DNA of 64,000 nucleotides from Massilia sp. CF038 (GTDB lineage Bacteria > Pseudomonadota > Gammaproteobacteria > Burkholderiales > Burkholderiaceae_D): contig NZ_FQWU01000002.1 of NCBI RefSeq assembly GCF_900129765.1, positions 124,001 through 188,000 on the forward strand, in the 5' to 3' direction. A program made the translations under genes and the position numbers. The notes beneath the pieces were generated by a model, which was not told where the DNA came from, searched no databases, and saw only the letters and a program-made list of their open reading frames with translations. Of this stretch, positions 10,623 through 51,248 are shown piece after piece. The stretch's first letter is position 1. Every line of letters begins with the position of its first letter.

Positions 10623-11468
10623 TTGTACGTTTGGAAACCACTCTCACCATCGCAACCGGAGCATCTCGCCCTTGGCATTGCCTTCGGCATGACCGATATC
10701 GGCAAAGTCCGCGTTTCCAATGAAGATAATTTTCTGATCGATTGCCAGCTGGGTCTGGTCGCCGTGGCGGACGGCATGGGCGGTCACGAAGCAGGTGAAG
10801 TTGCCAGTTCCGACGCCTTGTTGTCGCTTTCTCACTACATTCGAACGCTCGACGATCACGCCAACCCCTTGGACTTTGGCGCCAGCACCTTTGATGCCGC
10901 TGCCGCCGATCCCCTGGGCGAGTGGAGCGCCGAGAACACGGTCACCATGACTGCGCTGCACGACGCGGTCGAGTTCGCCAACCAGCGCATGTTCCATCTG
11001 AACATGGAAAATCAGCATGCCGAAGGCGCCGGCATGGGCACCACCCTGACCGGCTTCTGGCAGCCCGACCCAAGCGGCCCCCTGTTTGTCTTTCATGTGG
11101 GCGACACCCGTTTGTACCGCCTGCGCGCCGGCCGCCTGAACCAGCTGACGCGCGACCAGACCATGTACCAGCACGCAATTGAGCTGGGGATTCGCCACAA
11201 TCTGCCGGGCCGCAATTTATTACTTCAAGCGCTGGGACCGTCAGCTGTCATCCGGCCCGAACTTCAGGTCCGCAACACCGCGCCCGGCGACATTTACATG
11301 CTGTGCAGTGACGGCTTGCATGGCGCCACCGCCCATGACGACATGGCGGACATTCTCACCGAAGCGGGCCCCGCGGGGCTGGGCGAGGCCTGCAGCAAAC
11401 TGATCGATCTGGCCAAGCAAGGCGGCAGCCGCGACAACATCACCGTGGTGCTGCTGCACTGCCACTAA
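10623..11468 (+). CDS. PP2C-family Ser/Thr protein phosphatase
   Basis: Metal-dependent phosphatase of the Stp1/PrpC type that removes phosphate from Ser/Thr (281 residues). Visible motifs: TDIGKVRVSNEDNF (metal-binding Asp/Glu at the N-terminus), VAVADGMGGHEAGEVAS (core DGMGG), FHVGDTRLYRLR, MLCSDGLHGA and SRDNITVVLL near the C-terminus. All canonical PP2C acidic residues appear present. The TTG start is chosen because AGGAG at 10613-10617 lies 5 nt upstream; the first ATG would cut into the fold. It lies 0.7 kb from a degenerate kinase on the opposite strand and may act on targets of the kinase at 23436-25571 (inference). Confidence 0.9.
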   Translation: MYVWKPLSPSQPEHLALGIAFGMTDIGKVRVSNEDNFLIDCQLGLVAVADGMGGHEAGEVASSDALLSLSHYIRTLDDHANPLDFGASTFDAAAADPLGEWSAENTVTMTALHDAVEFANQRMFHLNMENQHAEGAGMGTTLTGFWQPDPSGPLFVFHVGDTRLYRLRAGRLNQLTRDQTMYQHAIELGIRHNLPGRNLLLQALGPSAVIRPELQVRNTAPGDIYMLCSDGLHGATAHDDMADILTEAGPAGLGEACSKLIDLAKQGGSRDNITVVLLHCH

Positions 11469-12189: not shown

Positions 12190-12999
12190 CTAGCGCACGG
12201 GGCGCACGCCGCGTTTGCAGGCGCTGTCAAAGGCGCTGAGAAATTCAAACGCGCTGCCAAAGCGCTGGGCCCGGTCGCGCGCCAGGGCCTGGCTGATCAA
12301 GGCATCAAAACTGCTGCCCAGTCCGGGTGACACGGCCGACGGTGCGGCCTGGGATGCATCGCGCAGTTGCGGCATCGACGTGGCGGCGCGCCCTTCAAAT
12401 GGCGCCGCCCCGGTCAGAATCTGGTACAGCACGGCGCCCGCGGCAAACAGATCGGCGCGGACATCCAGCGGCTCGCCACGTAATTGTTCGGGTGCCATAT
12501 TACCCAGCGCACTCTGTGGCGGCATGCCTGGCTCGCCCTGGCGCCGCGCATGGGTGAAATTCGCCAGGTGCAAATCCCCTTCTTCGTCAAGCAAGAGATT
12601 CTCGCTGCGCAGGTCGGCGTGGATCACGCCATTGGCATGCACGTGCACCAGGGCAAGCAGCAATTGACGGAAATTGGCCAGCGTGAGGCGATGGCCTTGA
12701 CCGTGGACGTAGCCACTGGCAAGCCATAACACGCCATCGGCTTCGGCACATTCGTACATACGAACAATGTTGGGATGGTTAAATCCCGCAGCAAGTTGCA
12801 CTGCATGCAGTATCCGCGCACGGATCAAAATTTCCTTCGGCCGCGCCAGCTTGAGCGCGACCTGTTCCCGGGTCGGCCCTTCGCCTGCGCTGGCCAGCCA
12901 GGTACGCGAGCGCGCACGATCACCCAAAAGGGAAATCAAGGTGTACGGCCCCACTCGCTCAGGTTTTTTCATTGGCGGGATATTAATATTCAATGTCAC
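12190..12999 (-). CDS. Degenerate Ser/Thr protein kinase-like protein (probable pseudokinase)
   Basis: A 269-residue Hanks-type kinase fold without membrane segment or extra domain. The VALK lysine (K50) and the catalytic-loop D129 and N134 (HADLRSEN) are kept, as is the APE motif (169-171). However, the DFG motif is NFT (147-149), removing the Asp that holds magnesium, and the glycine-rich loop has lost two of its three glycines (around residue 26). The catalytic loop is HAD, not HRD, so it is a non-RD kinase. Catalytic activity is doubtful, and a scaffolding or sensing role is possible. Met10 is an alternative start. Convergent with yceI. Confidence 0.75.
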   Translation of the reverse strand: MTLNINIPPMKKPERVGPYTLISLLGDRARSRTWLASAGEGPTREQVALKLARPKEILIRARILHAVQLAAGFNHPNIVRMYECAEADGVLWLASGYVHGQGHRLTLANFRQLLLALVHVHANGVIHADLRSENLLLDEEGDLHLANFTHARRQGEPGMPPQSALGNMAPEQLRGEPLDVRADLFAAGAVLYQILTGAAPFEGRAATSMPQLRDASQAAPSAVSPGLGSSFDALISQALARDRAQRFGSAFEFLSAFDSACKRGVRPVR

Positions 13000-20210: not shown

Positions 20211-21047
20211 TTATATGCGTTTGCCCGCCGCACTGCCGCGGCCTGCCTGCAGCATCACCCCATATGCGGTCAGCGCGCCTGGCGCGGCTGCGCGCGCGAT
20301 CTTGCGTGAAGCGAACCAGCCGGTCAGGCGGCCATCTTCGCGGTCCACCACCGGGCACGAGGCCGACAGCAGCAGCTCCTGGCCGGGCGTGCCACGCAAG
20401 GCGCCGCCGCCAGCCATGACGGCATTGCCGGCAGGGGCACGTACATGCACGCTCGGAAAACCCGTCATCATGCTGGCGTTGCGAATGATGCGGGCGTCGA
20501 ATTCCACGCCCTCGGTGCCGCGAATGCCAATCACAAATGCGGTCAGGCGCGCCTGGCCGGTGTCGGCCAGATCACGGCCGGTGGCGCCCCAGCCACTGAT
20601 TTTGCCATCGCGTCCGATCAGCGGGTAGCTCGATGTCAGCACATTGACCGCGCCCGGGCCGGCGCAATTGTCGCGCGCGCCGCCGCCCGTACCAATCCAG
20701 CCGGCGCCCAGACGGGCGCTCACGCCCGGTTCGCCCACCATGGCACTGGTGGCGCAAAATACTTGCTGCTCAACGGGCACCGGGCGTCCGCCGCGCGTGA
20801 CCTTGATGCCAATGGCGTACACCGCCAGCGGAAACGGTTCGCGGCCCGAAGCGGCCCAGCCCTTGTAGACACCGTCGCCATCGCGCACCGGGTAGCAGGA
20901 CGACAGCACATTGGTGGCGCCGCCGCCCAGGTCGTAAGCGCCGCCGCCCGTGAGGGTATAGCCGTCGGGCAGCCAGGCCGCCGCCTGCTCGCCGGGCAAA
21001 TTGCCCGCCATTGCCACTGCCGCAAAACTTTCGATGACCACGTCCAT
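20211..21047 (-). CDS. Uncharacterised protein made of three related ~60-residue repeats
   Basis: No function recognised. From the ATG at 21047 (preceded by AAGGGGCAGG) the product is 278 residues. A longer frame to 21206 exists, but it would run through the sigma-54 promoter. Three repeats are visible, about 29-82, 116-176 and 207-268. Each has GGGA near its start, an S(S/A)xxP core (VLSSCYP, VLTSSYP, LLSASCP), a GW dipeptide (GWAAS, GWGAT, GWFAS) and a closing hydrophobic strand (VYAIGI, AFVIGI, AYGVML). This suggests an all-beta, possibly propeller-like or lectin-like fold (inference). No signal peptide or membrane segment. A sigma-54 promoter lies at 21102-21117 and a divergent sigma-54 activator at 21243, so it is probably the regulated output of that activator. 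Confidence 0.7.
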   Translation of the reverse strand: MDVVIESFAAVAMAGNLPGEQAAAWLPDGYTLTGGGAYDLGGGATNVLSSCYPVRDGDGVYKGWAASGREPFPLAVYAIGIKVTRGGRPVPVEQQVFCATSAMVGEPGVSARLGAGWIGTGGGARDNCAGPGAVNVLTSSYPLIGRDGKISGWGATGRDLADTGQARLTAFVIGIRGTEGVEFDARIIRNASMMTGFPSVHVRAPAGNAVMAGGGALRGTPGQELLLSASCPVVDREDGRLTGWFASRKIARAAAPGALTAYGVMLQAGRGSAAGKRI

Positions 21048-21101
21048 GCCTGCCCCTTGTTGTTGTCGTTGCCGCGCTGACGCGCTGCCTCTGGCCTTTA
21101 T

Positions 21102-21117
21102 TGCAACATCTGTGCCA
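21102..21117 (-). promoter_or_regulatory. Sigma-54 (-24/-12) promoter
   Basis: On the minus strand the sequence is TGGCACAGATGTTGCA. It matches the sigma-54 consensus TGGCAC-N5-TTGCW, with GG and GC exactly 10 bp apart. The ATG at 21047 would give a leader of roughly 45 nt. The divergently encoded protein at 21243 is a sigma-54-dependent activator, which makes this site highly plausible. Confidence 0.85.
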
Positions 21118-21160
21118 TGACGAAACACGGGCACGCCAAGGCAAAAGCCAGTCCCGCACC

Positions 21161-21204
21161 TGTAAAGCAGCGCGCCTTTACATGTAATCGACGGTGTAAT
21201 TGAC
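21161..21204. promoter_or_regulatory. Candidate activator-binding (UAS) region with repeated TGTAA half-sites
   Basis: A dyad TGTAAAG (21161-21167) N8 CTTTACA (21176-21182) is followed by direct repeats TGTAATCGAC (21183-21192) and TGTAATTGAC (21195-21204), 12 bp apart. The block lies 44-87 bp upstream of the -24 element of the sigma-54 promoter and directly upstream of the -10 box of the activator gene. That is the right place for enhancer sites that could also give autoregulation. Binding is inferred only. Confidence 0.55.
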
Positions 21205-21205
21205 A

Positions 21206-21211
21206 TATAAT
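21206..21211 (+). promoter_or_regulatory. -10 box for the FHA-like/sigma-54 activator gene
   Basis: Exact TATAAT, 31 bp before the GTG start, immediately after the TGTAAT(C/T)GAC repeats. No convincing -35 box, so activator-dependent or repressed transcription is possible. Confidence 0.5.
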
Positions 21212-21242
21212 CTGGGCGAAAATTGCCCTAAGGAATAGCCGC

Positions 21243-22760
21243 GTGATCGATCCGGATAACACCCTGACCACCCATCTGTTCGCACGCGAAGGCGGGCCCA
21301 GCGCAGCCTTGCTGGGACTGACCATTCTGTGGCACCCCGACAGTGCCCGCATCGGCGAGCAGTACATCGGTCCCGCCGGCGAAGGCACGATCGAGATCAG
21401 CCGCTACGCCCCCTTGTTCTTCCGCCCCGGGCAGGACGGCGTGGCGATCGGCCACCGTGCCATCGCCCGCGCGCCCCTGCAGCTGCGCCGCACTGCCAGC
21501 GATGGGCTGATCATCACGCCAGCTGCCAGCGCCATGGCGGTGGAAGTCAATGGCCGCATCCTCGACAGCGTGCTGCAGTTCGAACGCGCCGACATGGCGC
21601 GCGGCGTCGTCATCGGCCTGGGCGGCCACGTGCTGCTGTGCGCGCACTGGATGACGTCATTCCCGCGTGCCAACGGCTTGCCCGGTCTGCTGGGTGTCTC
21701 CAGCGCAGCGATTGCCACGCGCGACCTGATCCGCCAGGTGGCCGCGACCGACCTGTCGGTGCTGCTGCTGGGCGAAACCGGCACCGGCAAGGATGTCGCC
21801 GCGCGGGCCATTCACGGCGCCAGCAAACGCAATGGCCGGCCGCTGGTGGCGGTCAATATGGCCACGCTCAATGAATCGCTGGCGGCAGCCGACTTGTTCG
21901 GCGCCGTCAAGGGCGCCTACACGGGGGCGCAGTCGGCCCGCAGCGGCCTGTTTGCGGAAGCCGATGGCGGCACCTTGTTTCTCGACGAGCTGGGCGACAC
22001 GCCAGCATCGGTGCAGCCGATGCTGCTGCGCGTGCTGGAGACGGGCACCTATCGCCCGCTTGGATCGAGCCAGGATGCCAGCAGCAGCGCGCGCCTGATT
22101 GCCGCCACCGACCAGGACCTCGATGCCAAGGGCTTCAATCAGCCGCTGCTGCGGCGCATGGAAGCGTTTGTGATCCGGGTCCCGCCGCTGCGCGAACGGC
22201 GCGAAGATATTGGCGTGCTGCTGCTCGAGGCGCTGCGGCTGTGCAGCGAGAATGCAGACGAACTGGCAGCGTTTCCGTCCGCCCTGGTCAGCGAGATGTG
22301 CAATTACGATTGGCCAGGCAATATCCGTCAGCTGGTCAATGTCACGCGGCGCGCCCTGATGACGCAGCGCGCCGGCGGCGTGCCGGCACTGGGCCAGTTT
22401 GTCGACCTGACGCCGGCAGCCCGTACCAGCGCAACAGCGCTGCCAGCCGACAAGGCCGAGGCGTCCGCGCGGCGCCGCCTGGCCGACATTGGCGCCGACG
22501 ATTTGCTGCAAGCGATGGAAGACAGCGGCTGGCAGATCAGCGCTGCGGCCCAGCAGTTGGGCGTGTCACGCCCGTCGCTGTATAAAATGATCGAAGCCCA
22601 TGCGGGCATCCGCGCTGCGCCAACGATTCCCGAACAGGAAATCCACATGGCATGGCAGGCGTGCAGCCACGACGTGGCCGCCTGCGCAGCGCTGCTCAAG
22701 ACGCCGTCCGAAGCCCTGCGCCGCCATTTGCGTGCGCTGGGCCTGGAACCTGGCGTCTGA
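21243..22760 (+). CDS. FHA-like/AAA+ sigma-54-dependent transcriptional activator with two HTH segments
   Basis: 505-residue enhancer-binding protein. The N-terminus (about 35-135) looks like an FHA phosphothreonine-binding fold (VEVNGRIL then [12 protein letters not shown]), although canonical FHA residues are weak. The AAA+ domain (about 150-380) has Walker A GETGTGKD (177-184), Walker B TLFLDE and the sigma-contact loop GAYTGA (224-229), Tyr replacing the usual Phe of GAFTGA. A Fis-type HTH (419-452) is followed by a second HTH-like segment (464-500), which is unusual. The GTG start has AAGGAA 7 nt upstream. Divergent from the triple-repeat gene and convergent (10 bp) with the orphan gene of the kinase operon. 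Probably activates the promoter at 21102-21117 in response to Ser/Thr phosphorylation (inference). Confidence 0.85.
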
Positions 22761-22770
22761 GGGACAACGC

Positions 22771-23439
22771 TTACTGGTTCTTTTTCGGCGGGCTGACACC
22801 GCTGCCCACTTCGCCTTCTGGCATCAGGGTCGACATCGCCGTCATGCCAGGGAACGCGTCGCGCGCCTGGATTTTTGGCGGGCTCACACCGCTGCCGACT
22901 TCACCTTCCGGATCGAAGGAGAAGGCGCGCTGCTCCGTGGTGCCGTCGGCGCGCTGAATTTCCACCGTCAGGACGAAGGCGATTTCCCAGCGTCCGGTGG
23001 CCTTGCCCACGGTCAGTTCGCTATTCCATTCCAAGGCAAATTCGTTGTATTCGGGATCGTCCGGATGGACTGCCGACGGCACGAACTGGCTGCCCGGCAA
23101 GGACACACTGGCGCCTGGAATCGCAATTTTTGTGGTCGTGACAAACGGCGACACCGGCGCGAACTCGGTGCGAACACCAGCGCCAATCTGCGTCACTTGC
23201 GGCATGGTGATCAGGGTGCAGTCCAGCACCTTGAAGCCATTGAACTGACTGTAGCTGCCGGCGCGCACGCGCACACGGGTCAGTTCGCCCACGGTAAAGT
23301 AAATCCCGCCGGCGTAGCGGCCCTTGAGCGGATTGCCATGGCCATCCTTGCGGCTGAAACGCCACTCGAGCGACTGGCCAACCTGGTCAATATCGAAGTT
23401 GGCTTCAATCAGCATGGTGGTGGGTTTTTTTTCTATCAT
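22771..23439 (-). CDS. Uncharacterised protein with duplicated PEGEVGSGVSPPK tail
   Basis: Function not recognised. 222 residues, soluble, no signal peptide. Residues 1-175 are rich in beta-type alternation (IYFTVGELTRVRVRAGSY, WEIAFVLTVEI). The C-terminal tail contains the 13-residue segment PEGEVGSGVSPPK twice, 17 residues apart (DNA 22873-22911 and 22783-22821). The first ATG overlaps the stop of the kinase gene (ATGA, 23436-23439), so the two are translationally coupled and likely work together. The Gly/Pro-rich repeats could be exposed peptides, binding sites for a partner or phospho-acceptors (each has two Ser); this is speculation. Confidence 0.75.
   Translation of the reverse strand: MIEKKPTTMLIEANFDIDQVGQSLEWRFSRKDGHGNPLKGRYAGGIYFTVGELTRVRVRAGSYSQFNGFKVLDCTLITMPQVTQIGAGVRTEFAPVSPFVTTTKIAIPGASVSLPGSQFVPSAVHPDDPEYNEFALEWNSELTVGKATGRWEIAFVLTVEIQRADGTTEQRAFSFDPEGEVGSGVSPPKIQARDAFPGMTAMSTLMPEGEVGSGVSPPKKNQ
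22783..22911 (-). repeat. Duplicated 13-codon peptide repeat inside the orphan gene
   Basis: Copies at 22873-22911 and 22783-22821 encode the same 13 residues. They differ at five nucleotide positions, all synonymous by my reading (Pro, Val, Val, Gly, Pro codons). This pattern implies selection for the peptide after an old duplication. Confidence 0.8.
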
Positions 23440-25571
23440 TTGGCGCTTTCCAAAATGGTGGACTGGTGAAAACGGGAATCGCGCCGAAGCGCAATCAGGT
23501 CGGGCTCGGCATTAATCAAATTGAGCGGATAACCACGCTGACGAGCAAGCAACAATTGTTCCAGGGCCGCCTCGCGCTGGCCCGACAATTCATAGGCCAT
23601 GGCGGCGCGGTAGCGCACATCGGCGCTGTCGGGGTCGGCAACCAGGGCGCGCCGCGTCAGCGCCGCAGCTTGCTCCCTTTCGCCCAGCCTTGCTGAATAC
23701 AAGCCCATGCGCGACATCATGGTCGCATCCTTGGGTGAACGTTCGAGCAAGGGCTTGAGCAAGGCCAGCGCCTGGCGATACGCTTCGCGCGACGCTTGTT
23801 CGCGTCCTGGAATCCAGCGCAGGGTATCGGCCAGATTGGCCCAGCGCACATAGGTGTTGCTGTTGCCGCGCGCCGAGGAGACGGCGTTTTCAAAGGCCTG
23901 CGCCGCGCCCACATAGTCGCCCCGGTTGAACAGCGCGTTACCCAGATTGGTGTACAGACTGCCGTTCGGACGTACCTGCAAGCCTTGTTGCAGCACCTGC
24001 AGCGACTCGTCGCCCCGGTCCTGGCGCAGCAAGGCATAGCTCAGATTTGCATACGCCATCACCGAATCCGGTTCGGCCGCGATACTGCGCCGGAACGCCG
24101 CTTCGGCCCCCTTGTAATCGCCCTGCTCGAAACGCAGCAAGCCCAGCACGTCGAGCAGCTTGCGCTCGTTCGGGTACACGGCCAGCGCGCTGTCGAGGTG
24201 AGTCTGGGCATCGCCAAAGCGCGCCATGCGAATCAGGATATCGGCCTTGATGGTGAGCGCAAAGACATCGAGCGGATCAAGACGCAGCGAATGCTCGATC
24301 AGGCGCAAGGCATCTTCTTTTTTGCCCTGGCCCAGGCGCACGGCAGCCTGCGCCGTGTAAGCCATGGCCAGCTGGTCGTTCAGGCGCAATGCCAGCTGGG
24401 CGCTGGCGTCGGCCCGCTGCAGCCAGGTCTCATCGCGGCTGTCGCCCACGTGGCGCATGTTGTACGCGATGGCCAGGCCAGCCGCGGCGCCCGCATGGTC
24501 GGGCTTGCGCTCGAGGATGGCGTTGAAACGTTCGATGGCAATTTCAAGACTTTCATCGCGGTCGAAGGTCTTGAGGGCATACATCCCCTCACGCATGGCC
24601 ACCGCTTCCGAGAAAAATGGCGTGTGCTGCTTGTACCAGCCAGACGGCGCCAGCAGCAGCGCCGCACCCAGCACCAGGGCCGCCCCGGCGCCACCCATGA
24701 ACAGCTTGTTGCGCCAACGCGCAGGCGGGGCGGACGCGGGCGCCGCCGGCAGCACCACGGCAGGCGCACCCAAGGTCGCCAGACGCGCACCCACGGCTTC
24801 CATCGAAGGCAGGCGCTGCGTCAGGTCGCGCGCCGTCATGGCCCGCACCAGGGCTGCCACCGGGGCACTGGTCTCGGGCGGAAATTCCCATGTCGCCGAC
24901 GACGACTGGATGTGGGCCGCAGCCAGCGACAAGCCGCTTAAATGGGCAAACGGGCGGGCACCGGTCAGCATTTCGAACATGACCACGCCCAGCGCGTAGA
25001 TGTCGCTGGCCGCGCCAGGAGCGGTGCCCAGCATCAGTTCCGGCGCCAGATACGCGACGGTGCCGGGCGACTGCTCGAGCGGCGCCACTTCGGTGGCGTC
25101 CGGGTCAATGCGGCGCGCCAGGCCGAAGTCGAGAATGCGCACCGCGCCTTCGGCGTCGAGCATCAGGTTGGACGGCTTCAGGTCGCCGTGAATCAAGTTG
25201 GCTGCGTGGGCCTGGGCCATCGCATCGGCCACCTGGCCGACGATCGACAGCACTTGCGGCAGCGGCAGCGGACCGCGCGCGCCCAGTTCGCGCAGCGTGT
25301 GGCCAGCCACGTATTCCATGATGATCGACAGCTGCGAACGGTCGCCGTCGATCGAAAAAATGCGCACGAAGGCAGGGTGGCGCAGCGAGGCCGCCAACCG
25401 TGCTTCTTCCAGTAAGTCATCTGGCCGTGCCGTGAGCAGATGCGGCTTGAGCCGCTTGATCGCGACACTGCGCTGCAGCCGGGTATCCCAGGCTTCGACC
25501 ACTTCGCCGAAGCCGCCCTCACCCAGTACGCGCAGCAGCTTGTAGTGACCTAAATCTTGTTCCAGCTGCAA
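23436..25571 (-). CDS. Membrane Ser/Thr protein kinase with C-terminal TPR repeats
   Basis: 711 residues. The N-terminal Hanks-type kinase (about 10-270) is intact: LGEGGFGEV loop (16-24), VAIK lysine K39, alphaC E56, HGDLKPSN with D130 and N135, DFG at 148-150 and APE at 176-178. The catalytic loop is HGD rather than HRD (non-RD), so activation-loop control may differ. A single membrane segment (about 289-309) leads to an array of TPR-like helices (about 330-700; for example YANLSYALLRQDRGDESLQ, YTNLGNALFNRGDYVGAA), presumably a periplasmic or membrane-proximal interaction surface. The downstream orphan gene overlaps by 4 bp. Probable input kinase for the FHA-like activator nearby (inference). 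Confidence 0.92.
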   Translation of the reverse strand: MQLEQDLGHYKLLRVLGEGGFGEVVEAWDTRLQRSVAIKRLKPHLLTARPDDLLEEARLAASLRHPAFVRIFSIDGDRSQLSIIMEYVAGHTLRELGARGPLPLPQVLSIVGQVADAMAQAHAANLIHGDLKPSNLMLDAEGAVRILDFGLARRIDPDATEVAPLEQSPGTVAYLAPELMLGTAPGAASDIYALGVVMFEMLTGARPFAHLSGLSLAAAHIQSSSATWEFPPETSAPVAALVRAMTARDLTQRLPSMEAVGARLATLGAPAVVLPAAPASAPPARWRNKLFMGGAGAALVLGAALLLAPSGWYKQHTPFFSEAVAMREGMYALKTFDRDESLEIAIERFNAILERKPDHAGAAAGLAIAYNMRHVGDSRDETWLQRADASAQLALRLNDQLAMAYTAQAAVRLGQGKKEDALRLIEHSLRLDPLDVFALTIKADILIRMARFGDAQTHLDSALAVYPNERKLLDVLGLLRFEQGDYKGAEAAFRRSIAAEPDSVMAYANLSYALLRQDRGDESLQVLQQGLQVRPNGSLYTNLGNALFNRGDYVGAAQAFENAVSSARGNSNTYVRWANLADTLRWIPGREQASREAYRQALALLKPLLERSPKDATMMSRMGLYSARLGEREQAAALTRRALVADPDSADVRYRAAMAYELSGQREAALEQLLLARQRGYPLNLINAEPDLIALRRDSRFHQSTILESAK

Positions 25572-42260: not shown

Positions 42261-43358
42261 TTACCGACCCAACTTCTGCAATTTGCGATCGACGAATTCC
42301 TGCAACGGGGCCGTCAGCGTGCGGCTTGCTTTGGCGCGCTGAAACGCTTGCACCGCTTCGCCGTTGCGCTGCTCGGCCTCGAGCGAAATTCCCATCCCCA
42401 TCAGCCAGACGCCGTGCTCGGGATTGGTCCGCAGCGCCAAGGCATACTGATCAATTGCTTCAGGGTGGCGCTGTTCACGCTGCAAAGCGCCAGCCAGGAA
42501 GGCGTGATAATCACCATTGCCGGCCGCAGCCGGCAAGCTGCGCAGCAGCGTGGCCACACCGGATTGGCCGGCATCGATCTGCATCCGCGCCAGCAGCATG
42601 GCCAGCGCCGGCTGCCCTGCATCGGCGGCCAGACCTTGCTCGAGCTGCTGCATCGCTTCCGCCTTGCGTCCGCTTTCCACCAGCAGGCTGACCAGACTCT
42701 GGCGGGCACCTTCATGGCGCGGGTTTAACACCAGGGTCTGGGACAGCACGTCCATGGCTGCGCTGGCGCGGCCTTCATCGAGCATCGTCATGGCCTCGCG
42801 ATAGCTGCGTTCAGCGCGCTGTTCGCTGGTCATCTGGCGTCCGCCTGTTGGTGCGGTGCTGCCGGCAGGCGCATTGTGCGCGGTGCTTGCTGCTGGCGCC
42901 ACCTTGCTTGCGACCTTGTTTGCCGCCTTGGCGGGCGCGTTGCTCGCTGGTGCCCTGGGCGCGGTAACTGTCGCGGCGCCGGCCGGCTCTGGCTGAACCG
43001 GTGCGACCGCCACTGGCGCCGATGGTGCCTGTTTGGGACCGTCGGGCACAACGCCCTTGTTCGTGACCGTGGCAGGCACCGCCACGCCAGGAACCGGCAC
43101 GGAGGGTGGCGGCGTCGCAGTGGGCGCATTCGCCGCAGGTGCGTCCATGGTCAATGCACGCGGCCCGGCCGGCTTCTTGAGCCAGAACCACGCCCCCATC
43201 GCCAGTGCGAATACGATGAGCACCGCGGCAGTGGCGATCTGGCGTACAGGCAGGCGCGGCTCGGCCACCAGCACCGGTTTGATTTCAGACTGCATGCCGG
43301 TGCCCGATTGGGAACCGCGCGCATCCAGGTCTTGCAGCATTTTGTTTATCAGACTCAT
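42261..43358 (-). CDS. mshN: MSHA-pilus TPR protein MshN-like
   Basis: 365-residue protein with cytoplasmic N-terminus (MSLINKMLQDLDARG, as in MshN), one membrane segment (about 42-60), an Ala/Pro-rich linker and TPR repeats (about 180-360; YREAMTMLDEGRASAAMDVL and following). Likely a periplasmic scaffold of the pilus machine. The start overlaps the mshM stop by 4 bp (ATGA). Last gene of the mshI-mshN unit. The linker is low complexity and probably fast-evolving. Confidence 0.85.
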   Translation of the reverse strand: MSLINKMLQDLDARGSQSGTGMQSEIKPVLVAEPRLPVRQIATAAVLIVFALAMGAWFWLKKPAGPRALTMDAPAANAPTATPPPSVPVPGVAVPATVTNKGVVPDGPKQAPSAPVAVAPVQPEPAGAATVTAPRAPASNAPAKAANKVASKVAPAASTAHNAPAGSTAPTGGRQMTSEQRAERSYREAMTMLDEGRASAAMDVLSQTLVLNPRHEGARQSLVSLLVESGRKAEAMQQLEQGLAADAGQPALAMLLARMQIDAGQSGVATLLRSLPAAAGNGDYHAFLAGALQREQRHPEAIDQYALALRTNPEHGVWLMGMGISLEAEQRNGEAVQAFQRAKASRTLTAPLQEFVDRKLQKLGR

Positions 43359-44245
43359 TTGCTAAACATCCAGGTTAGGCCGGCCAGGGCCACAAGCGCG
43401 GGCACGGCAGCCAGCGCCCAGCGCGGCGCGGCGGCTTTGCTTGCCAGTGTGTCTTTGGCGGCTTCGGCCACATGGGCCCGGCTCACTTGTTGCGTTCCCT
43501 GACCAAAACTGACCATCAAGGACTTGTGCGCCAGAATATTCACCAGCCGTGGAATGCCGCCACTGGCGCGGTACAGCTTGTTCAGCGCCTGGCGCGTGAA
43601 CATGCGCGAGCCACCGTAGCCGGCAATGCGCAGCCGATGCACCAGGTAATACTCCATGTCATCGCGGCTCAGGGCGCCCAAGTGGTAGTGGAAGGTAATG
43701 CGCTGCGCCAGCTGGCGTATCGACTGCTCCTGCAAGTTCTTGTCCAGCTCGGGCTGGCCAAACAGCACGATTTGCAGGAGCTTGCGCTTTTCCGTTTCCA
43801 GATTGGTCAGCAGGCGCAGTGCTTCCAGACTTTCAATGGGAATCGCCTGCGCCTCATCAAGGCACAGCAGCACGCGCTTGTCGTCCGCTGCCAGTTCCAG
43901 CAGACGATTGTTAATCGACTTGAGCAACTGGTGCTGGTCCACATCGCGCCCCAGCGCGATCTCCAGTTCATCAGCCAGCGCAAGCATCAGCGTGCGCGGC
44001 TCCAGCAAGGGATTGGGAATGTAAGCGGTGACGTATTCCTTGCCCAGCGTCGCCATGAACTTGCGGCACAGCAGCGTCTTGCCGGTGCCCACCTCGCCCG
44101 TGATCTTGATGAAGCCTTCGCCATTGCGCGCCGCCACCAGCAAGGTGTTGAGCGCCTCCTGCGAGTGGGGGCTGGTGAAAAAGAAGCTGGTGTCCGGCGT
44201 GATGCCGAACGGTGCTTCGCGCAAGCCGAAATGGGCGGTGTACAT
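43355..44245 (-). CDS. mshM: MSHA biogenesis AAA ATPase MshM (ExeA family)
   Basis: 296-residue ATPase: Walker A GEVGTGKTLL, Walker B VLLCLDEAQ, sensor motif LLQIVLFGQPELD, and a C-terminal membrane helix (about 275-293). ExeA/MshM proteins use ATP to help assemble or insert the secretin. The start (MYTAHFGLREAPFGITPDTSFFF) is the family hallmark. 2 bp after the mshL stop and 4 bp overlap with mshN. Confidence 0.93.
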   Translation of the reverse strand: MYTAHFGLREAPFGITPDTSFFFTSPHSQEALNTLLVAARNGEGFIKITGEVGTGKTLLCRKFMATLGKEYVTAYIPNPLLEPRTLMLALADELEIALGRDVDQHQLLKSINNRLLELAADDKRVLLCLDEAQAIPIESLEALRLLTNLETEKRKLLQIVLFGQPELDKNLQEQSIRQLAQRITFHYHLGALSRDDMEYYLVHRLRIAGYGGSRMFTRQALNKLYRASGGIPRLVNILAHKSLMVSFGQGTQQVSRAHVAEAAKDTLASKAAAPRWALAAVPALVALAGLTWMFSK

Positions 44246-44247
44246 GC

Positions 44248-46020
44248 TTATCTGCGCTCCTGCGACGGCGGCGCCAGCTGCTCGATGCGGCGGCTGGCGT
44301 CGAGCATGTCGTTGCCAAAGGCATTCGGATTGCTGTCGTCGACGATGGTCGGCTTGATCAGCACCACCAGCTCGCGCTTCTGGTTAACCCGCCCTTTGCT
44401 GCCAAACAGCGCGCCCAGCACCGGCACCCGCTGCGCGCCCGGCACACCGGACTGGTCGTTGGTGGATGACTGGCGCATCAGGCCGCCAATGGCGACCACC
44501 CGGCCATCCTGACCGCGCACCATGCTGTCCATTTCGGATGTGGACGAGGCTGCCAGCGGCAGCGACAGCGAACCAGCCGTGCCCAGGTTGATCCCCTTGC
44601 TCACGGTGGACACCTGGCTCACCGACGGGTGCACGTGCAGGATGATGTTGCCCTTCTCGTCGATCTGCGGGGTGACGTCCAGCACCACACCGGAGAAGAA
44701 GGGCTGCAGCGTCACGCTCGGCGTGGACTGGGTATTGCCCGTCAAATTCGTGCTGGTGTTATTCGTCACACCGGTCACATAGTATTCATCGGTACCGATC
44801 TTGAGCACGGCCTTCTGGTTGTTCATGGTGGCGATGCGCGGGCTGGACAGCACGTGCACCGTCCCTTGCGATTCCAGGAAGGAAATCAGGGTCGCAAAAT
44901 TCTGGGTCTGGAATGCCAGCCCGAACAAGGAGCCAGCTGCCGAATTTGCCGCTGCAATGGCAGAGCCGGCCACTGCACTGACGCCTGCGGGCCCGGTATT
45001 GGCCAGCGTGCCCGTCGGTGCCAGTCCCGTGCCGGGCTGCAGCAAGCCGGCGGAAAGGCGGCGGTCGCCACCACTGTAGTTCCCGAAACCGGCCCAGTTG
45101 ATGCCCATCTGGAAGCTGTCGTTCAATTCCACTTCGAGGATCTTCGCTTCCAGGATCACCTGGCGGTTGACCGACAACTGGCTGGCCTTCAGATACTCGG
45201 CCACGTTGCGCAAATCCTCGGGCATGCCGCGCACCACGATCACGCCCGATTGCGGACTGATGACGACGCTGCGGCCATCGCCGGGCACCACAATGGCCGT
45301 CAGCGCGGCCTTCAGTTCGGCCCAGAACTCGCTGTTCGAGGTGGTGGTGATCTGGCTGCTTTCCTGCGGCCCGTTGTTGCTGGTGTCGCCGCCGCCATTG
45401 TTATTATTGTTGTTATTGTTCTGGCCGTTCCCGTTCTGGTTGTTCTGATTATTGTTATTGTTACTGTTGTTGGCCGCGGAACTGACCGAAGTCGAGGTCA
45501 CTTTCAGGCTGGATGTGCCCTTCCGGTTACCGATCAGGTAATTGATCTGAAAAACACGCGTTTGCATGGTGAGCGGCTTGATCGAAATGCGGGTGCCCTC
45601 GATCTTGTAATCGAAGCCGTACATTTCACGGATGGCATCGAGCGCTTCGACCATCGTCACATCTTTCAAGTTGGCCGAAATGGTGCCGCTCACGTCCGGA
45701 TGCACCAGCATGTTATAGCGCGTGCCTTCCACAATCGAGTGGTAGAACTGCTGCACCGGCACGTTGTTGAAGGCCACATTGAAGCGCTCTTCCTGCGCAG
45801 CGCGCCCGCGCGGCAGGCGGTTGTTCATCACGGCAACGGGTGGCAGCAGCGCGTCGGCCACGGCGTCGGGCTGGCGCACCGGCGCGTTGCTGTTGCGCGC
45901 GGCATCTTCCTTGAGGCCATTGCTGAGCGTATCGTAGGTGCTGCGCGTGGCCGGCGGCGCGGCGCAGCCCGCCATCGTGCTCAGGGCCAGCATACAAGCA
46001 ATCCAGGTAGTTTTCTGCAT
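44248..46020 (-). CDS. mshL: MSHA pilus secretin MshL
   Basis: 590-residue outer-membrane secretin lipoprotein. Signal peptide with lipobox-type MAGCAA at the N-terminus, STN/N-terminal ring domains (about 80-190) and the secretin core (about 290-570) with VPVLGALFGSKGRVNQKRELVVLIKPTIV. Between them is a low-complexity segment (about 192-222) that is mostly Asn with some Gln and Gly. The secretin forms the pore for the pilus. 15 bp after mshK and 2 bp before mshM. Confidence 0.95.
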   Translation of the reverse strand: MQKTTWIACMLALSTMAGCAAPPATRSTYDTLSNGLKEDAARNSNAPVRQPDAVADALLPPVAVMNNRLPRGRAAQEERFNVAFNNVPVQQFYHSIVEGTRYNMLVHPDVSGTISANLKDVTMVEALDAIREMYGFDYKIEGTRISIKPLTMQTRVFQINYLIGNRKGTSSLKVTSTSVSSAANNSNNNNNQNNQNGNGQNNNNNNNNGGGDTSNNGPQESSQITTTSNSEFWAELKAALTAIVVPGDGRSVVISPQSGVIVVRGMPEDLRNVAEYLKASQLSVNRQVILEAKILEVELNDSFQMGINWAGFGNYSGGDRRLSAGLLQPGTGLAPTGTLANTGPAGVSAVAGSAIAAANSAAGSLFGLAFQTQNFATLISFLESQGTVHVLSSPRIATMNNQKAVLKIGTDEYYVTGVTNNTSTNLTGNTQSTPSVTLQPFFSGVVLDVTPQIDEKGNIILHVHPSVSQVSTVSKGINLGTAGSLSLPLAASSTSEMDSMVRGQDGRVVAIGGLMRQSSTNDQSGVPGAQRVPVLGALFGSKGRVNQKRELVVLIKPTIVDDSNPNAFGNDMLDASRRIEQLAPPSQERR

Positions 46021-46035
46021 AACAGGTTCTGTCTT

Positions 46036-46395
46036 TTAAGGTTGGGCTGCGGCCGCGCTCTCGGGCGGCCGGAAAAGCTTCAGGGTCACGCGCTGCTGGC
46101 CGCGCTTGAGCACCACTTCAGTGGGACGGATCGTTTCCAGGATGGCGTCGCCAACGCGCTGGCCCTGGCGCACCGGCTTGCCGTCGATCACAGCCACGCG
46201 CCGTCCACCAGGGCGTTGCGATACCAGAATCGATTGCAGGTCAGGCAGTCCGGCCGCAGCGGGGGCGCCGCTTGCCGCCGGCGCGCTCAGCGCGGCAGGC
46301 GGCCGGGTTGGATCGTCCAGCGCGTCTTGTGCCATCGCCATGCCAGCAGAGGCCAGCATGGCCACAGCGGCAAGCAGGCGCGCCAGCGCGCTCAT
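46036..46395 (-). CDS. mshK: MSHA pilus biogenesis protein MshK-like
   Basis: 119 residues with Sec signal (LLAAVAMLASAGMAMA) and the DPTRPP motif, then a compact domain LQSILVSQRPGGRRVAVIDGKPVRQGQ typical of MshK/PilP-like pilotin-associated proteins. The start at 46395 overlaps the mshJ stop by ATGA; a longer frame starting at 46407 is less likely. Periplasmic part of the assembly platform. Confidence 0.85.
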   Translation of the reverse strand: MSALARLLAAVAMLASAGMAMAQDALDDPTRPPAALSAPAASGAPAAAGLPDLQSILVSQRPGGRRVAVIDGKPVRQGQRVGDAILETIRPTEVVLKRGQQRVTLKLFRPPESAAAAQP

Positions 46396-47048
46396 AGTTT
46401 CACCCATTTCTTGTCCAGGTTGACGGTATAAGCCACCAGCGTCAGGGTGGCGTCGGGATAAGTATCGACCCGCATATTGGCGCTGCCCCAGAACAGCTGG
46501 CCATGCATTGCTTCCAGCGCGGCCATGTATGCGACCATGTCCGGATAACTGCCCTGCACCACCAGTTCCACCCCATGCTTTTGCAGCAGCGCTGCCGGCG
46601 CGGCTGCCGCACCTGGCGCCGGCGCCGCTTCCACCTCGCTTAGGGTGCGCAAGGATTTAAGCCGCAAACCACGGTGCGCGCGCAGCATCTGTTCCAGCAT
46701 GGTGGACATGCGCTCGGCCGGCACCATGCCCTCCTGCATGGCCAGCAACTTGTCGGACAGGGCCTTGGCGTCGGCGCGTATCTTCGCCAGGCGTGCGCGT
46801 TCGGCCGCGTCCGGGTCGATCGTATGGGTGAGAATGGTTTGCGCCGTTTCTGCGTCGACCGCGGCGATCTGGTCGCGCTGGCGCGCCATCTCGTCCAGCA
46901 GCACGCGCTGCTGCGCATAATTCGGATTCAGGTAGAAAAAGAAAGCGGCAAAAATGAGCACGGCAGCTGCCGCGGCAAACATCATGGCGCGCTCGCGCAA
47001 GGTACGCGCATCGATGCGCCCGCTGATGATTTTCCAGTATTGCTTCAT
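46392..47048 (-). CDS. mshJ: MSHA biogenesis protein MshJ (PilO/GspM-like)
   Basis: 218-residue bitopic membrane protein: helix at about 24-43 (AAAAVLIFAAFFFYL), coiled-coil (about 45-110, DEMARQRDQIAAVDAETAQ) and ferredoxin-like C-terminal domain (VELVVQGSYPDMVAYMAALEAM). This is the GspM/PilO-type arrangement of the inner-membrane alignment complex. Overlaps mshI2 and mshK by 4 bp each. Confidence 0.88.
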   Translation of the reverse strand: MKQYWKIISGRIDARTLRERAMMFAAAAAVLIFAAFFFYLNPNYAQQRVLLDEMARQRDQIAAVDAETAQTILTHTIDPDAAERARLAKIRADAKALSDKLLAMQEGMVPAERMSTMLEQMLRAHRGLRLKSLRTLSEVEAAPAPGAAAAPAALLQKHGVELVVQGSYPDMVAYMAALEAMHGQLFWGSANMRVDTYPDATLTLVAYTVNLDKKWVKL

Positions 47049-47692
47049 TTGACCACCTCCGGCGCGGCCGCTGCAGTTGCCAGACTCGATTGCAGACTGA
47101 AACTGAGATAGCGCGGCGTAGCTGCGCCTGCGCTCTTGTCGGTTTCCGGCGTGCCGATCTCCAGGGTGGAAAAAGTGGCCCCCTTCATCACCGGTTCACG
47201 CGCCAGGCGCTGCAAGTACTGGGGCACCAGCTCCGCATTGAGCGCGTTGCCCTGCACCCCGATTGCATTGCCGCTGCCAGCCACGCGCAGTTCCGTCAGC
47301 CACAGGCCATCGACTTTTTGGCGCGCGAATGCACGGAAATACGGAGAAAACCCGCGCGTATCGCCAAACCCGCCGCGCTGCACCGTGTCGGCTGCCTCGG
47401 ACAGCATGGTCAGCTCGTTTTGCGCTGTCGTGATTTCCGCGCTCAGCGTGGTGCTTTTCGGCCGCGGTGGATATTGCACTTTCGCGTCGGCCAATCGCTG
47501 TTGCTTGTTGACCAGTAGCGCATCGGTGGCGGCGGCCTGGGCTTTGAGCGAGCGCATGCGATAGGCGGCATCGGCTGCCAGCAAGGCGCAGCCCAGGCAA
47601 ATCAGGCCCAGGGACTGCAACATCGTGACGCTCGAAAAATACTTCTTCTGCTTGCGGAAGATCGGATTGAACAGATTGATTTGCTGGCTCAA
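47045..47692 (-). CDS. mshI2: PilN-like fimbrial assembly protein (MshI2)
   Basis: 215-residue PilN/GspL-C-type protein: short cytoplasmic MSQQINLFNPIFRKQKKYFSS motif (binds the PilM-like partner), one membrane helix (about 26-42), coiled coil and a ferredoxin-like domain. Together with mshI it forms the PilM-PilN pair. 4-bp overlaps with both neighbours show tight translational coupling. Confidence 0.85.
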   Translation of the reverse strand: MSQQINLFNPIFRKQKKYFSSVTMLQSLGLICLGCALLAADAAYRMRSLKAQAAATDALLVNKQQRLADAKVQYPPRPKSTTLSAEITTAQNELTMLSEAADTVQRGGFGDTRGFSPYFRAFARQKVDGLWLTELRVAGSGNAIGVQGNALNAELVPQYLQRLAREPVMKGATFSTLEIGTPETDKSAGAATPRYLSFSLQSSLATAAAAPEVVK

Positions 47693-48633
47693 AGCACCAT
47701 CTCCTCGTGGCGCAACGCAGCGCCAAGCGTCAGGAAGTGGCGCTGCTGGGCTGCCAGGCCCGTCAGGTCGGGCACTTTGCTTAAATCGAATACGCTGGCC
47801 AGGTTGAGCGAATCAACCGGCATGTACAAATTGGATGAGAGGTAATCGGCCAGTGCCGATGATGGCAACGGCGCCAGCACCAGCTTGGACACGTTCACGT
47901 AATGGAACTGGCGGTCGAAGTGGTCGAGCGAGCGCTGCAGTTCGAGGGTGACCCGGTCGAAACACTGGTTGCGCCGGTCCGGATCGGTCTCGAGCACTTG
48001 CGCCAGCGTGACGTCGATCCGGCGCGACAAATACAGTTCGGCACCGAAGGTCACGGTCAGCAAACCGCCCTCGTCGGCGAACGAGAGCATGGCGAGGCCA
48101 CGCCCTTCGGGTTCCAGCATGGCCGAGATATTTCGCTGTGCCATTTCAGGGATGTCGATCACGGCCAGATTCACCTTGGCGCTGGCAAACAGGCTCTGGC
48201 GCGCTTCGATAACGGCATTGCGCGCGGCAATGGCGAACATCGAACTGGGACGGGTGTTGGCGTTTTTGTCGGCGGGAATATCAAGGACATCGATGGTGGC
48301 GTCGTCGACATGAAAGTCGAGCATGTCCTTCAGGCGCCAGCGCACCGCCGCCTTCAATTCTTCCGGCTGCACATTGGGGGACTCGACTGCTAGCATCTGG
48401 TAATCGCGCCCGCCCAGCAAGGTGGACACCTGGTACTGCAGCGCCTGCAGTTCGCGCGCGATCTTGTCGAGCGCTTCCGGTGTGGGCGCCAGTTTTGCAG
48501 GAAACGCGGCAGCCAGGTCGACCACCGGTTTGGCATCGGGCACCCGGCTCACGCGCGCGGCACACACACCGCCGGCATCGAAGCCAATGGCCAGCAAGCC
48601 ACTGGTTTTCCTAGTTTTCTTGAAAAAACCCAT
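47689..48633 (-). CDS. mshI: PilM-like actin-fold protein (MshI)
   Basis: 314-residue cytoplasmic protein of the PilM/MshI family with an actin/FtsA-like fold (TSGLLAIGFDAGGVCAARV at the start; LGGRDYQMLAVESPNVQPEELKAAVRWRLKDML). The start at 48633 is preferred over an in-frame ATG at 48696. The latter precedes a TATAAT on the minus strand (48691-48686) which would be the promoter of this unit. First gene of the mshI-mshN transcription unit, after the mshA terminator. Confidence 0.85.
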   Translation of the reverse strand: MGFFKKTRKTSGLLAIGFDAGGVCAARVSRVPDAKPVVDLAAAFPAKLAPTPEALDKIARELQALQYQVSTLLGGRDYQMLAVESPNVQPEELKAAVRWRLKDMLDFHVDDATIDVLDIPADKNANTRPSSMFAIAARNAVIEARQSLFASAKVNLAVIDIPEMAQRNISAMLEPEGRGLAMLSFADEGGLLTVTFGAELYLSRRIDVTLAQVLETDPDRRNQCFDRVTLELQRSLDHFDRQFHYVNVSKLVLAPLPSSALADYLSSNLYMPVDSLNLASVFDLSKVPDLTGLAAQQRHFLTLGAALRHEEMVL

Positions 48634-48685
48634 GCACTGAATCCAATGCTGAAATGATTGTTCAGGAAGCCGCTCTAGCGTCTTG

Positions 48686-48691
48686 ATTATA
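48686..48691 (-). promoter_or_regulatory. Possible -10 box for the mshI-mshN unit
   Basis: TATAAT read on the minus strand, about 53 bp before the mshI ATG and after the mshA terminator. The -35 region is weak (GGTCGC at 17 bp). Confidence 0.35.
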
Positions 48692-48776
48692 TTCACATTT
48701 CATGCGCGGCGACCCCTATTTTTCAATCGGGAAAGCGTTTTTTGACATTTTGGACGAGGCCGGGCACGCGCAATGA

Positions 48777-48804
48777 AAAACAGGCCAATCGCTTGGCCTG
48801 TTTT
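48777..48804 (-). terminator. Rho-independent terminator after mshA
   Basis: Stem AAAACAGGCCAA (48777-48788), loop TCGC, TTGGCCTGTTTT (48793-48804). It lies 31 bp downstream of the mshA stop and divides the pilus cluster into two units. Confidence 0.9.
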
Positions 48805-48834
48805 GACTGACCGGGGCGACCCCGGTGCGTTGGC

Positions 48835-49455
48835 TTACTGGCAGTTGGCCAGGGTCAGCAGTGCGGTGTCGATGACAGGCTGATTCACTACGGTTGGCGA
48901 AGCGCCCACCACGGTGGCGGAACCGGTACCGCCAGCGGTCTGCGTCGCTTCGGTGTAGGTGAAGCGGCAGTTCGGGTGGGTGGCATCAGCCGCAACGCTC
49001 AGGGTCGTGGCAGTCGGGGCAGCAGCACCCAGGGCCGGACCGAAGGTGGTCAGTACATAGTCGCCCTGCAGGTTGGCTGCATTGACCATGCCGCCAATGG
49101 CGTTCACGGAAGTATTCGTCACGCCATCGCCACCGACTTCAGGGAAGCCGCCAATGGTCAGGATGTTGGTGCCTTCGGCATTGATCACGCTTGGCAAGAC
49201 GGCAGTACCATTCAGGCCGCAAGTGGCGCAGCCAAGCTGGCCGCCATTCACCAGCCAGGCAGCATGGGCCGTGGCCGAGGCCGAGCGCACTGCACCCAGA
49301 GCCGCTTGCATGCGCGCCAGACGGGCCTGGCCAGTCATGTCGAACATACGTGGCAGTGCGGTTGCGGCAAGAATGCCCAGGATAACGATGACGACGATCA
49401 GTTCGATCAGGGTGAAACCAGCTTGGGCTTGCTTGCGGATGATTTGGGTGTTCAT
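48835..49455 (-). CDS. mshA: MSHA-type major pilin MshA
   Basis: 206-residue type IV prepilin. Leader peptide MNTQIIRKQAQAG is cleaved before F of FTLIELIVVIVILGILAAT, with Glu at +5 and the usual hydrophobic assembly helix. The C-terminal globular domain contains a CATC motif (about 76-79) and further Cys pairs (PNC, LANC) for disulfides. Last gene of the mshE-mshA unit, followed by a terminator. Likely a surface pilus for attachment. Confidence 0.9.
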   Translation of the reverse strand: MNTQIIRKQAQAGFTLIELIVVIVILGILAATALPRMFDMTGQARLARMQAALGAVRSASATAHAAWLVNGGQLGCATCGLNGTAVLPSVINAEGTNILTIGGFPEVGGDGVTNTSVNAIGGMVNAANLQGDYVLTTFGPALGAAAPTATTLSVAADATHPNCRFTYTEATQTAGGTGSATVVGASPTVVNQPVIDTALLTLANCQ

Positions 49456-49494
49456 TGGGTCGGGCTCCTAACGGCTAAAAAGAAGGAAATAAAA

Positions 49495-50016
49495 CTATCT
49501 GCTGAGATTGCTCGGGACTTCGTTCAAGACGATTCCCTCAATTGTCGTGCGATCTGACGTCTCGGCAGGTTTTGGGCCGTTAGCGTCCTCCAGGGTTCTT
49601 GACAGTTCGATACGGTAACTGAACTGTTTCGATGCTGCGCCCGGAAGTGTTGCACCTGTCCGAGTAATATACACGAGGAGCAATTTTTTTCGATTGAAAA
49701 ACCAGTTCCCGGGAGAAATTTTAAAGTTCTGTGGCGTAAAGTACTCACCCACATAGTTTGCTGGTTTTTGTGCCAACAAGCTCATCGGATTTATCGTTGC
49801 CAACTGTTCAATCTGATGCTGTTTGCCTTCTGCAATCAACTGCGCGGCACGCATGTTCAAACTGCTACGAAGCGCAGCGACAACCCGGTGCATTGCTGCC
49901 AACTCGGCTTCTTCCTGATACCAGCGCAGCCGTGTCAGCAAGGTGCCCGTCAGTACGCCGATAATCGTCACCACCACCGCCAGCTCGAACAGCGAAAAGC
50001 CGTGCTGGCGTTTCAT
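49495..50016 (-). CDS. Type IV prepilin-like protein (MshB-like position)
   Basis: 173-residue prepilin: MKRQHG leader, then FSLFELAVVVTIIGVLTGTLL with Glu at +5. The helical part is unusually charged after the assembly segment (RWYQEEAELAAMHRVVAALR). The rest has no family match I can name. The position between mshG and mshA suggests a minor pilin (MshB-like). 4-bp overlap with mshG, 39 bp before mshA. Confidence 0.7.
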   Translation of the reverse strand: MKRQHGFSLFELAVVVTIIGVLTGTLLTRLRWYQEEAELAAMHRVVAALRSSLNMRAAQLIAEGKQHQIEQLATINPMSLLAQKPANYVGEYFTPQNFKISPGNWFFNRKKLLLVYITRTGATLPGAASKQFSYRIELSRTLEDANGPKPAETSDRTTIEGIVLNEVPSNLSR

Positions 50017-51245: not shown

Positions 51246-51248
51246 CGT

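Follow-up and report, generated by a model that had tools for sequence, protein, structure and literature searches.

Sigma-54 enhancer-binding proteins that carry an FHA domain were reportedly described in Myxococcus xanthus by Jelsbak, Givskov and Kaiser in 2005. A threonine phosphorylation pathway made up of PpkA, PppA and Fha belongs to the type VI secretion system (T6SS), and Ser/Thr kinases of the PknB/Stk1 type carry PASTA domains. To our knowledge, bacterial Ser/Thr kinases are rarely accompanied by an obvious dedicated transcription factor, which makes it difficult to follow their signals. Here, we describe a locus of Massilia sp. CF038 in a stretch of 64,000 nt (contig NZ_FQWU01000002.1, positions 124,001 to 188,000; hereafter the window, to which all positions refer unless a locus number precedes them). 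In this locus, a predicted Ser/Thr kinase (KIN), a partner protein (ORPH) and a sigma-54 activator with an FHA domain (ACT) are encoded next to a triple-repeat protein (REP). We consider it fairly probable that KIN, ORPH and ACT form a transferable signalling module based on Ser/Thr phosphorylation, and that REP is the output plugged into this module within the genus.

The locus shares features with each of these systems. Like the activators of M. xanthus, ACT joins an FHA domain to a sigma-54 activator; as far as a comparison in outline goes, it differs from them in being linked to a kinase and to a member of the ORPH family, in the small size of the cassette, in the palindrome described below and in the exchangeable output. 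A cassette with swappable outputs thus looks like a new variation on the Myxococcus theme. The T6SS pathway likewise combines a Ser/Thr kinase with an FHA reader, and KIN-ORPH is found near tssF and tssG in 11 loci, whereas in the present locus the FHA domain is part of a transcription activator, and gene expression would be the expected output. With the PknB/Stk1-type kinases, KIN has in common a kinase domain, one probable transmembrane (TM) segment and a C-terminal sensor-like region, and it matches NF033483 with E 9.4e-66 and 223 bits, below the curated cut-off of 450. However, KIN has tetratricopeptide repeats (TPRs) in place of PASTA and a non-RD HGD loop. A description of a KIN-ORPH-ACT cassette was not found in the literature, in a search that covered open-licence papers only and thus leaves its absence from print unproven.

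KIN (23436..25571, minus strand) is a protein of 711 aa that matches Pkinase (E 4.9e-48) and TPR families in Pfam. The hallmarks of a Hanks-type Ser/Thr kinase are present, namely the glycine loop, the VAIK lysine, the catalytic Asp and DFG, and the catalytic loop reads HGDLKPSN, which is of the non-RD type. A single hydrophobic stretch around residue 290 is probably the TM segment, and the C-terminal TPRs are a probable sensor. The gene overlaps by 4 nt with that of ORPH (22771..23439, minus strand). All four open reading frames (ORFs) of the locus lie where they had been placed in an earlier note on this DNA, which had recognized a non-RD kinase with TM and TPRs overlapping an orphan gene. 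ORPH matched no Pfam and no NCBIfam family, and its best match in the PDB was at chance level (E 0.45). The family ends in a motif of the DPE-x-(E)VG type; DPE occurs in all 45 members examined and the fuller pattern in 37 of them. In the ORPH of the window, the motif PEGEVGSGV is present twice, after DPE and again at the extreme C-terminus, and a similar second PExEVG copy is found in most relatives in the genus and is absent in L045/L059. A relationship of ORPH to PixA was rejected (hhalign probabilities of 0.9% and 0.2%). ORPH is the fastest-changing member of the KIN-ORPH-ACT unit.

ACT (21243..22760, plus strand) converges with ORPH, from which it is separated by 10 nt. Behind the FHA domain it has a sigma-54 AAA+ domain (Sigma54_activat, E 8.1e-50) and a Fis-type helix-turn-helix (HTH), both found with Pfam. 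Walker A (GETGTGKD) and the sigma-54 loop (GAYTGA), the Thr of which presumably contacts sigma-54, qualify ACT of the window as a sigma-54 AAA+ protein. The N-terminus, which the earlier note had called FHA-like and for which it had asked for a structure prediction, was modelled with AF2 from 19 sequences (pLDDT 81.8, pTM 0.76). Foldseek retrieved 12 matches to this model at E<=0.001, every one of them an FHA protein, with 1uht (E 6.4e-6) and 3gqs (E 1.4e-4) at the top. In addition, a profile of the N-terminus matched the FHA domain of CT664 (3gqs) in the PDB with E 0.0016, and its SR aligned with the SR of the SRxH motif. According to the model, therefore, the folded stretch at the N-terminus (21243..21701, plus strand) has the FHA fold, in line with the earlier note. 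R54 and R76 are invariant; we take these two residues, together with the Ser and the His of SRxH, to be those of the phosphothreonine pocket.

The linkage of the genes was analyzed in samples of 17 genomes of the genus, 145 of the family, 399 of the order and 398 of the phylum, and an alignment of ORPH was used to scan named genomes, which yielded 42 loci from Massilia, Janthinobacterium, Duganella, Rugamonas and, in one case, Roseateles. KIN lies directly upstream of ORPH in all 42 loci, 20 of which also have a convergent ACT next to ORPH. When the family sample was searched with the N-terminus of ACT alone, 18 places in 15 of the 145 genomes were found, and KIN is alongside in 14 of the 18. 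Seven of these 14 places (L127-L130, L134, L135 and L137) have no BLAST match to ORPH. In six of the seven (not in L134, where the slot is unclear), the slot of ORPH is occupied by a small protein with a DPE motif at its end, and a profile of these six proteins matched ORPH with a probability of 95% and E 3.6e-8 in the one hhalign comparison made. In the order sample, ACT is present in six of the 399 genomes, three of which are shared with the family sample, and all six have KIN; three order genomes outside the family, from two families (L147-L149), carry KIN, ORPH and ACT. Because the linkage also holds when the search starts from ACT and outside the family, the three genes constitute a unit, as the earlier note had supposed for kinase, orphan and activator.

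The distribution of REP is different. In the genus, ORPH is present in 10 genomes and REP in the identical 10; this sharing reflects one linked unit in one locus and is no independent co-occurrence. In the family sample, ORPH occurs in 14 genomes and REP in four. REP did not turn up outside this one genus, and in the phylum sample it was present just in the window's own genome. Thus, the co-occurrence of all four homologues expected by the earlier note applies to KIN, ORPH and ACT and not to REP, and its fixed four-part set gives way to a constant part, KIN-ORPH-ACT, with an output that is exchanged.

REP (20211..21047, minus strand) is a triple-repeat, all-beta protein with no signal peptide recognizable by eye; its repeat 2 retrieves repeat 1 (E 2e-8) and repeat 3 (E 3e-5). 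The start at 21047 is likely the correct one because a longer ORF, with a start at 21206, would traverse the promoter, and the Met at 21047 is conserved in all eight relatives with an unbroken REP frame. The predicted sigma-54 -24/-12 promoter, TGGCACAGATGTTGCA (21102-21117, minus strand), has one mismatch and is the sole site of such quality in the window; at least one such site was present in 83 of 100 shuffles of 64 kb (mean 1.68), so the single match could arise by chance. A sigma-54 site precedes REP in 10 of the 10 genus members with the locus, window included: seven sites are perfect, that of the window has one mismatch, and those of L040 and L045 have two. It is therefore the conservation in the genus, not the lone match in the window, that makes the promoter convincing, and with it the near-perfect sigma-54 promoter that the earlier note had assigned to the repeat protein. 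The genome encodes an rpoN-type gene (PF04552, E 2.6e-64), and REP is likely a sigma-54 output.

The structure of REP could be modelled only weakly, from seven sequences (best AF2 model with pLDDT 61 and pTM 0.68; the other four with pLDDT 36-48). With this weak model, Foldseek ranked the C-terminal domain of PCSK9 (7anq) first, over nearly the full length (E 5.4e-7, TM 0.61/0.74), whereas APCbeta of perforin-like proteins was far weaker (E 0.013). For both the PCSK9 V-domain and APCbeta, a double-layered beta-prism with threefold pseudo-symmetry has been described, and for APCbeta also insertion into membranes (PMC6294395). REP resembles them as a three-repeat all-beta protein, but it is bacterial, appears to lack a signal peptide and shares only about 14% identity in a model of low confidence. 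We would guess that REP has a ligand on a membrane or surface. A search for REP on plasmids gave no match at E<=1e-3. In some relatives a further gene overlaps REP (L055 and L056 have it at full length, and L054, L057 and L058 gave only short matches); L053, L059 and the window gave no match to it. Its product (L017:5720-6970, minus strand) starts with a hydrophobic stretch, contains a CxxCH motif and reads like a c-type haem protein, with no Pfam family above cut-off. A CxxCH protein that resembles it by eye (L131:4494-6203, minus strand) faces ACT in L131, and beyond it lies an FHA-like reading frame (L131:6490-7302, minus strand).

Regulatory sites were counted in an edge set of 32 ACT loci (window included), 22 KIN-ORPH loci without ACT and three ACT paralogs linked to kdp-like genes, altogether 1,134,313 bases. 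The edge was defined as the outward 600 nt of the cassette, and the cut-offs were at least 11/12 for the palindrome and a score of at least 14 for the sigma-54 site. The stretches L016-L029 and L040-L045 were excluded, nearly all of them being duplicates of places in L053-L094; the non-duplicates lost in this way are L018 and L043 (with REP, a sigma-54 site and palindrome-like sites), L029 (with ACT; sites unscanned) and L024 (no ACT). L127-L137 are stretches from genome searches only. Two loci with unreadable loops stay among the 32, namely L053 (G152, 48% complete), the broken frames of which were taken unmended, and L079, in which the contig ends inside ACT.

In the REP-ACT gap of the relatives, half-sites of the form TTKACAYGT are repeated. 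The putative operator of ACT in the window, TTTACATGTAAT (21177..21188), agrees with the palindrome TTKACATGTMAA in 11 of 12 positions and is the sole place in the window with at least 11/12; a second, weaker copy, TTGACATATAAT (21200..21211), agrees in 10 of 12. Among the 20 ACT loci of the genome scan, 13 contain TTKACATGTMAA at 12/12, always at the cassette edge; none of the 22 loci without ACT does. In the edge set, 19 of the 32 ACT loci have the palindrome in an edge and 19 have a sigma-54 site there. One edge holds both in 15 loci, and the palindrome then lies 70-221 nt (start to start) upstream of the sigma-54 site. Altogether, 22 of the 29 palindrome matches in the set fall inside edges, none of them in the 22 loci without ACT or the three kdp-linked paralogs. 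Counting both strands, the set contains 47 sigma-54-like sites, 20 of them in edges of ACT loci and three in edges of loci without ACT. Since the motif was found in the earlier edges, the 11 ACT loci obtained after it had been fixed are the fairer test; five of them have the palindrome (L128, L131, L134, L147 and L149). A large ACT regulon in the window genome was rejected, as it contains no perfect and nine one-mismatch palindromes, compared with 17 in the reversed control. Extra perfect palindromes are present in G138, G145 and G144, and near those in L139 and L140 a sigma-54 site is missing. At L138:9226-9322 in G138, a second perfect palindrome and a sigma-54-like site, TGGCCCGGAATTTGCA (score 14.1), are about 85 nt apart, away from the cassette genes. 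A clear gene starts on that strand only after about 0.7 kb, and the place, which is a possible further target of ACT, was excluded from the counts.

The sigma-54 loop of ACT provides a natural comparison. GAYTGA is intact in 27 of the 30 readable cassette-type ACT genes and broken in three, L127 (GAYPGA), L129 (GAYAGA) and L130 (GALPGV). The three paralogs, which read GAFARA or GAFAQA, are second ACT copies with an FHA-type N-terminus (L132, L133 and L136, in G138, G094 and G125). They lie beside potassium transport genes, named kdp-like by eye, and have neither a kinase nor the palindrome. A palindrome and/or a sigma-54 site is present in an edge of 22 of the 27 ACT genes with an intact loop versus none of the six with a broken loop; the perfect palindrome of L130 lies outside the edge, at a distance of 1.3 kb. 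This pattern, in which the six broken loops represent few lineages, is no more than suggestive, but agrees with what control of sigma-54 promoters by ACT would predict.

Outside the genus, the sigma-54 promoter in the edge of the cassette points at genes other than REP, and seven different neighbours lie behind the edges that have both elements. Apart from REP in this genus, these are a 713-aa protein in the Massilia timonae group (L080, L082 and L086), in which repeats are visible by eye and a match to fascin falls just short of the cut-off, a small ORF with a radical SAM gene behind it in Rugamonas rubra (L087/L027), an ORF that was assigned to no family (L091), a DUF1842 protein (L094), a GGDEF protein (L128) and a tryptophan-halogenase-like FAD enzyme (L134). 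The small ORF and the radical SAM gene (L087:12249-12602, plus strand; L027:5882-6931, minus strand) could be a modified-peptide cluster. In L135, a sigma-54 site without palindrome precedes genes that include one PixA match.

We infer that the module may operate as follows. The kinase domain of KIN would be inside the cell and its TPRs probably outside the inner membrane. A cue would activate KIN, which would phosphorylate a Thr on KIN itself, on ORPH or on ACT, and the FHA domain of ACT would bind this phospho-site or be released by it. ACT would then bind the palindrome TTKACATGTMAA and drive RNA polymerase-sigma-54 at the adjoining promoter, with ORPH as a pathway-specific partner, either adaptor or substrate, that probably acts via its conserved DPE-x-EVG tail. 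A wider reading, which we put forward tentatively and hold to be somewhat doubtful, is that KIN-ORPH-ACT is an order-wide plug-in phospho-switch, a Ser/Thr-kinase counterpart of the two-component system. It would have moved between genomes, with new sigma-54 outputs placed behind one palindrome and with the DPE-x-EVG family joining kinase and FHA activator. The outputs would often be unusual beta proteins or competition-related proteins, here a PCSK9/APCbeta-like beta-prism, and the sites would be lost when the ACT loop decays.

Several observations weigh against a phosphorylation module. Pfam FHA is matched by only two of 17 ACT members, with a best E of 0.087, and Pfam by itself would miss the domain. 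The pocket is partly canonical, the window having Ala for the Ser before R76 and Pro for the His of SRxH. With the fold and the profile match on one side and the weak Pfam match and the not fully canonical pocket on the other, binding of phosphothreonine is likely, no more. Furthermore, no ACT adjoins KIN-ORPH in 22 of the 42 loci, and KIN is missing at four of the 18 ACT places, namely the three kdp paralogs and L131, in which 2.9 kb past ACT contain other genes and no kinase, and yet the loop is intact and the palindrome present. ACT might thus run the adjacent sigma-54 promoter while KIN-ORPH is a separate neighbouring pathway, and the FHA domain might be a degenerate protein-binding or dimer module, blind to phosphate. 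We consider this unlikely, because KIN adjoins ACT in most places found with ACT only, and in two other families as well, and because the exceptions other than L131 are all paralogs in which the sigma-54 loop is broken and the palindrome missing. Some of the edge counts also speak against control by ACT: the palindrome is missing from the edges of 13 of the 32 ACT loci, as is the sigma-54 site in 13 of the 32, and five of the 27 loci with an intact loop have neither. A sigma-54-like site in the KIN edge of three of the 22 loci without ACT (L060, L062 and L068) was discounted, as it apparently lies within tssF. Finally, the loci share ancestry, so that the counts represent non-independent events and none can be used as a probability; the palindrome was first spotted in the very edges where it was counted, and the edge width was chosen after the later loci had already been inspected.

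The loci without ACT point to another explanation, namely that KIN-ORPH switches contractile injection machines, either T6SS or the extracellular contractile injection system (eCIS), post-translationally in the manner of PpkA-Fha, and that ACT and REP were grafted on later. Indeed, full-length tssF and tssG lie within the stretch in 11 of these 22 loci; all 11 are from Janthinobacterium, however, and perhaps represent one event. Among the 32 ACT loci, L081, L083 and L129 have eCIS-type genes (in L081, ACT is downstream of them in the same direction) and L091 has a TssG relative, whereas queries with TssF, TssG and eCIS proteins gave no match (E<=1e-8) in the other 28 or in the window, where a T6SS cluster context is thus absent. 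A scan of nine proteins of the window revealed no T6SS family, and we regard this explanation as improbable. An anti-phage defence unit with KIN as a component appears very improbable. The best PADLOC matches of KIN are the defence kinases mad6 and PD-T4-6 (E down to 1.3e-66), but the listed best matches span the kinase region, as would be expected of Hanks kinases generally; ORPH and REP gave no PADLOC match, and ACT was matched over its AAA+ and HTH regions only.

Other genes of the window include an Stp1-like PP2C phosphatase below the NCBIfam cut-off (10623-11468, plus strand) and, near it, a second small Ser/Thr kinase (12190-12999, minus strand; Pkinase, E 1.3e-26), both 8-10 kb from the cassette. 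The phosphatase, which the earlier note had named as a potential off switch, may or may not serve as one. Orthologs of the phosphatase (at least 54% identity) are present in 12 of the 17 genus members, that is, in 10 of 10 with the cassette and in two of seven without, a distribution that would fit common descent as well as function. The phosphatase query gave no match (E<=1e-5) in the other 56 loci of the edge set, the stretches of which are about 20 kb or less while PP2C lies farther away in the genus. From the reading of starts only, a gene run at 42261-52952 (minus strand) resembles a type IV or MSHA-like pilus cluster.

If KIN, ORPH and ACT form the proposed module, kinase, partner, FHA activator, putative operator and promoter are all contained within 5.4 kb, and natural controls are available in the related genomes, in the form of exchanged outputs and of versions with a broken loop. 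Because of this compactness and these controls, signalling from kinase to promoter would be testable in one reporter strain. The cassette also gives a context to the uncharacterized ORPH partner family, and the palindrome could be used to seek further targets of ACT. In a Massilia-type environmental bacterium, a little-known kind of bacterial signalling circuit would thereby become directly testable.

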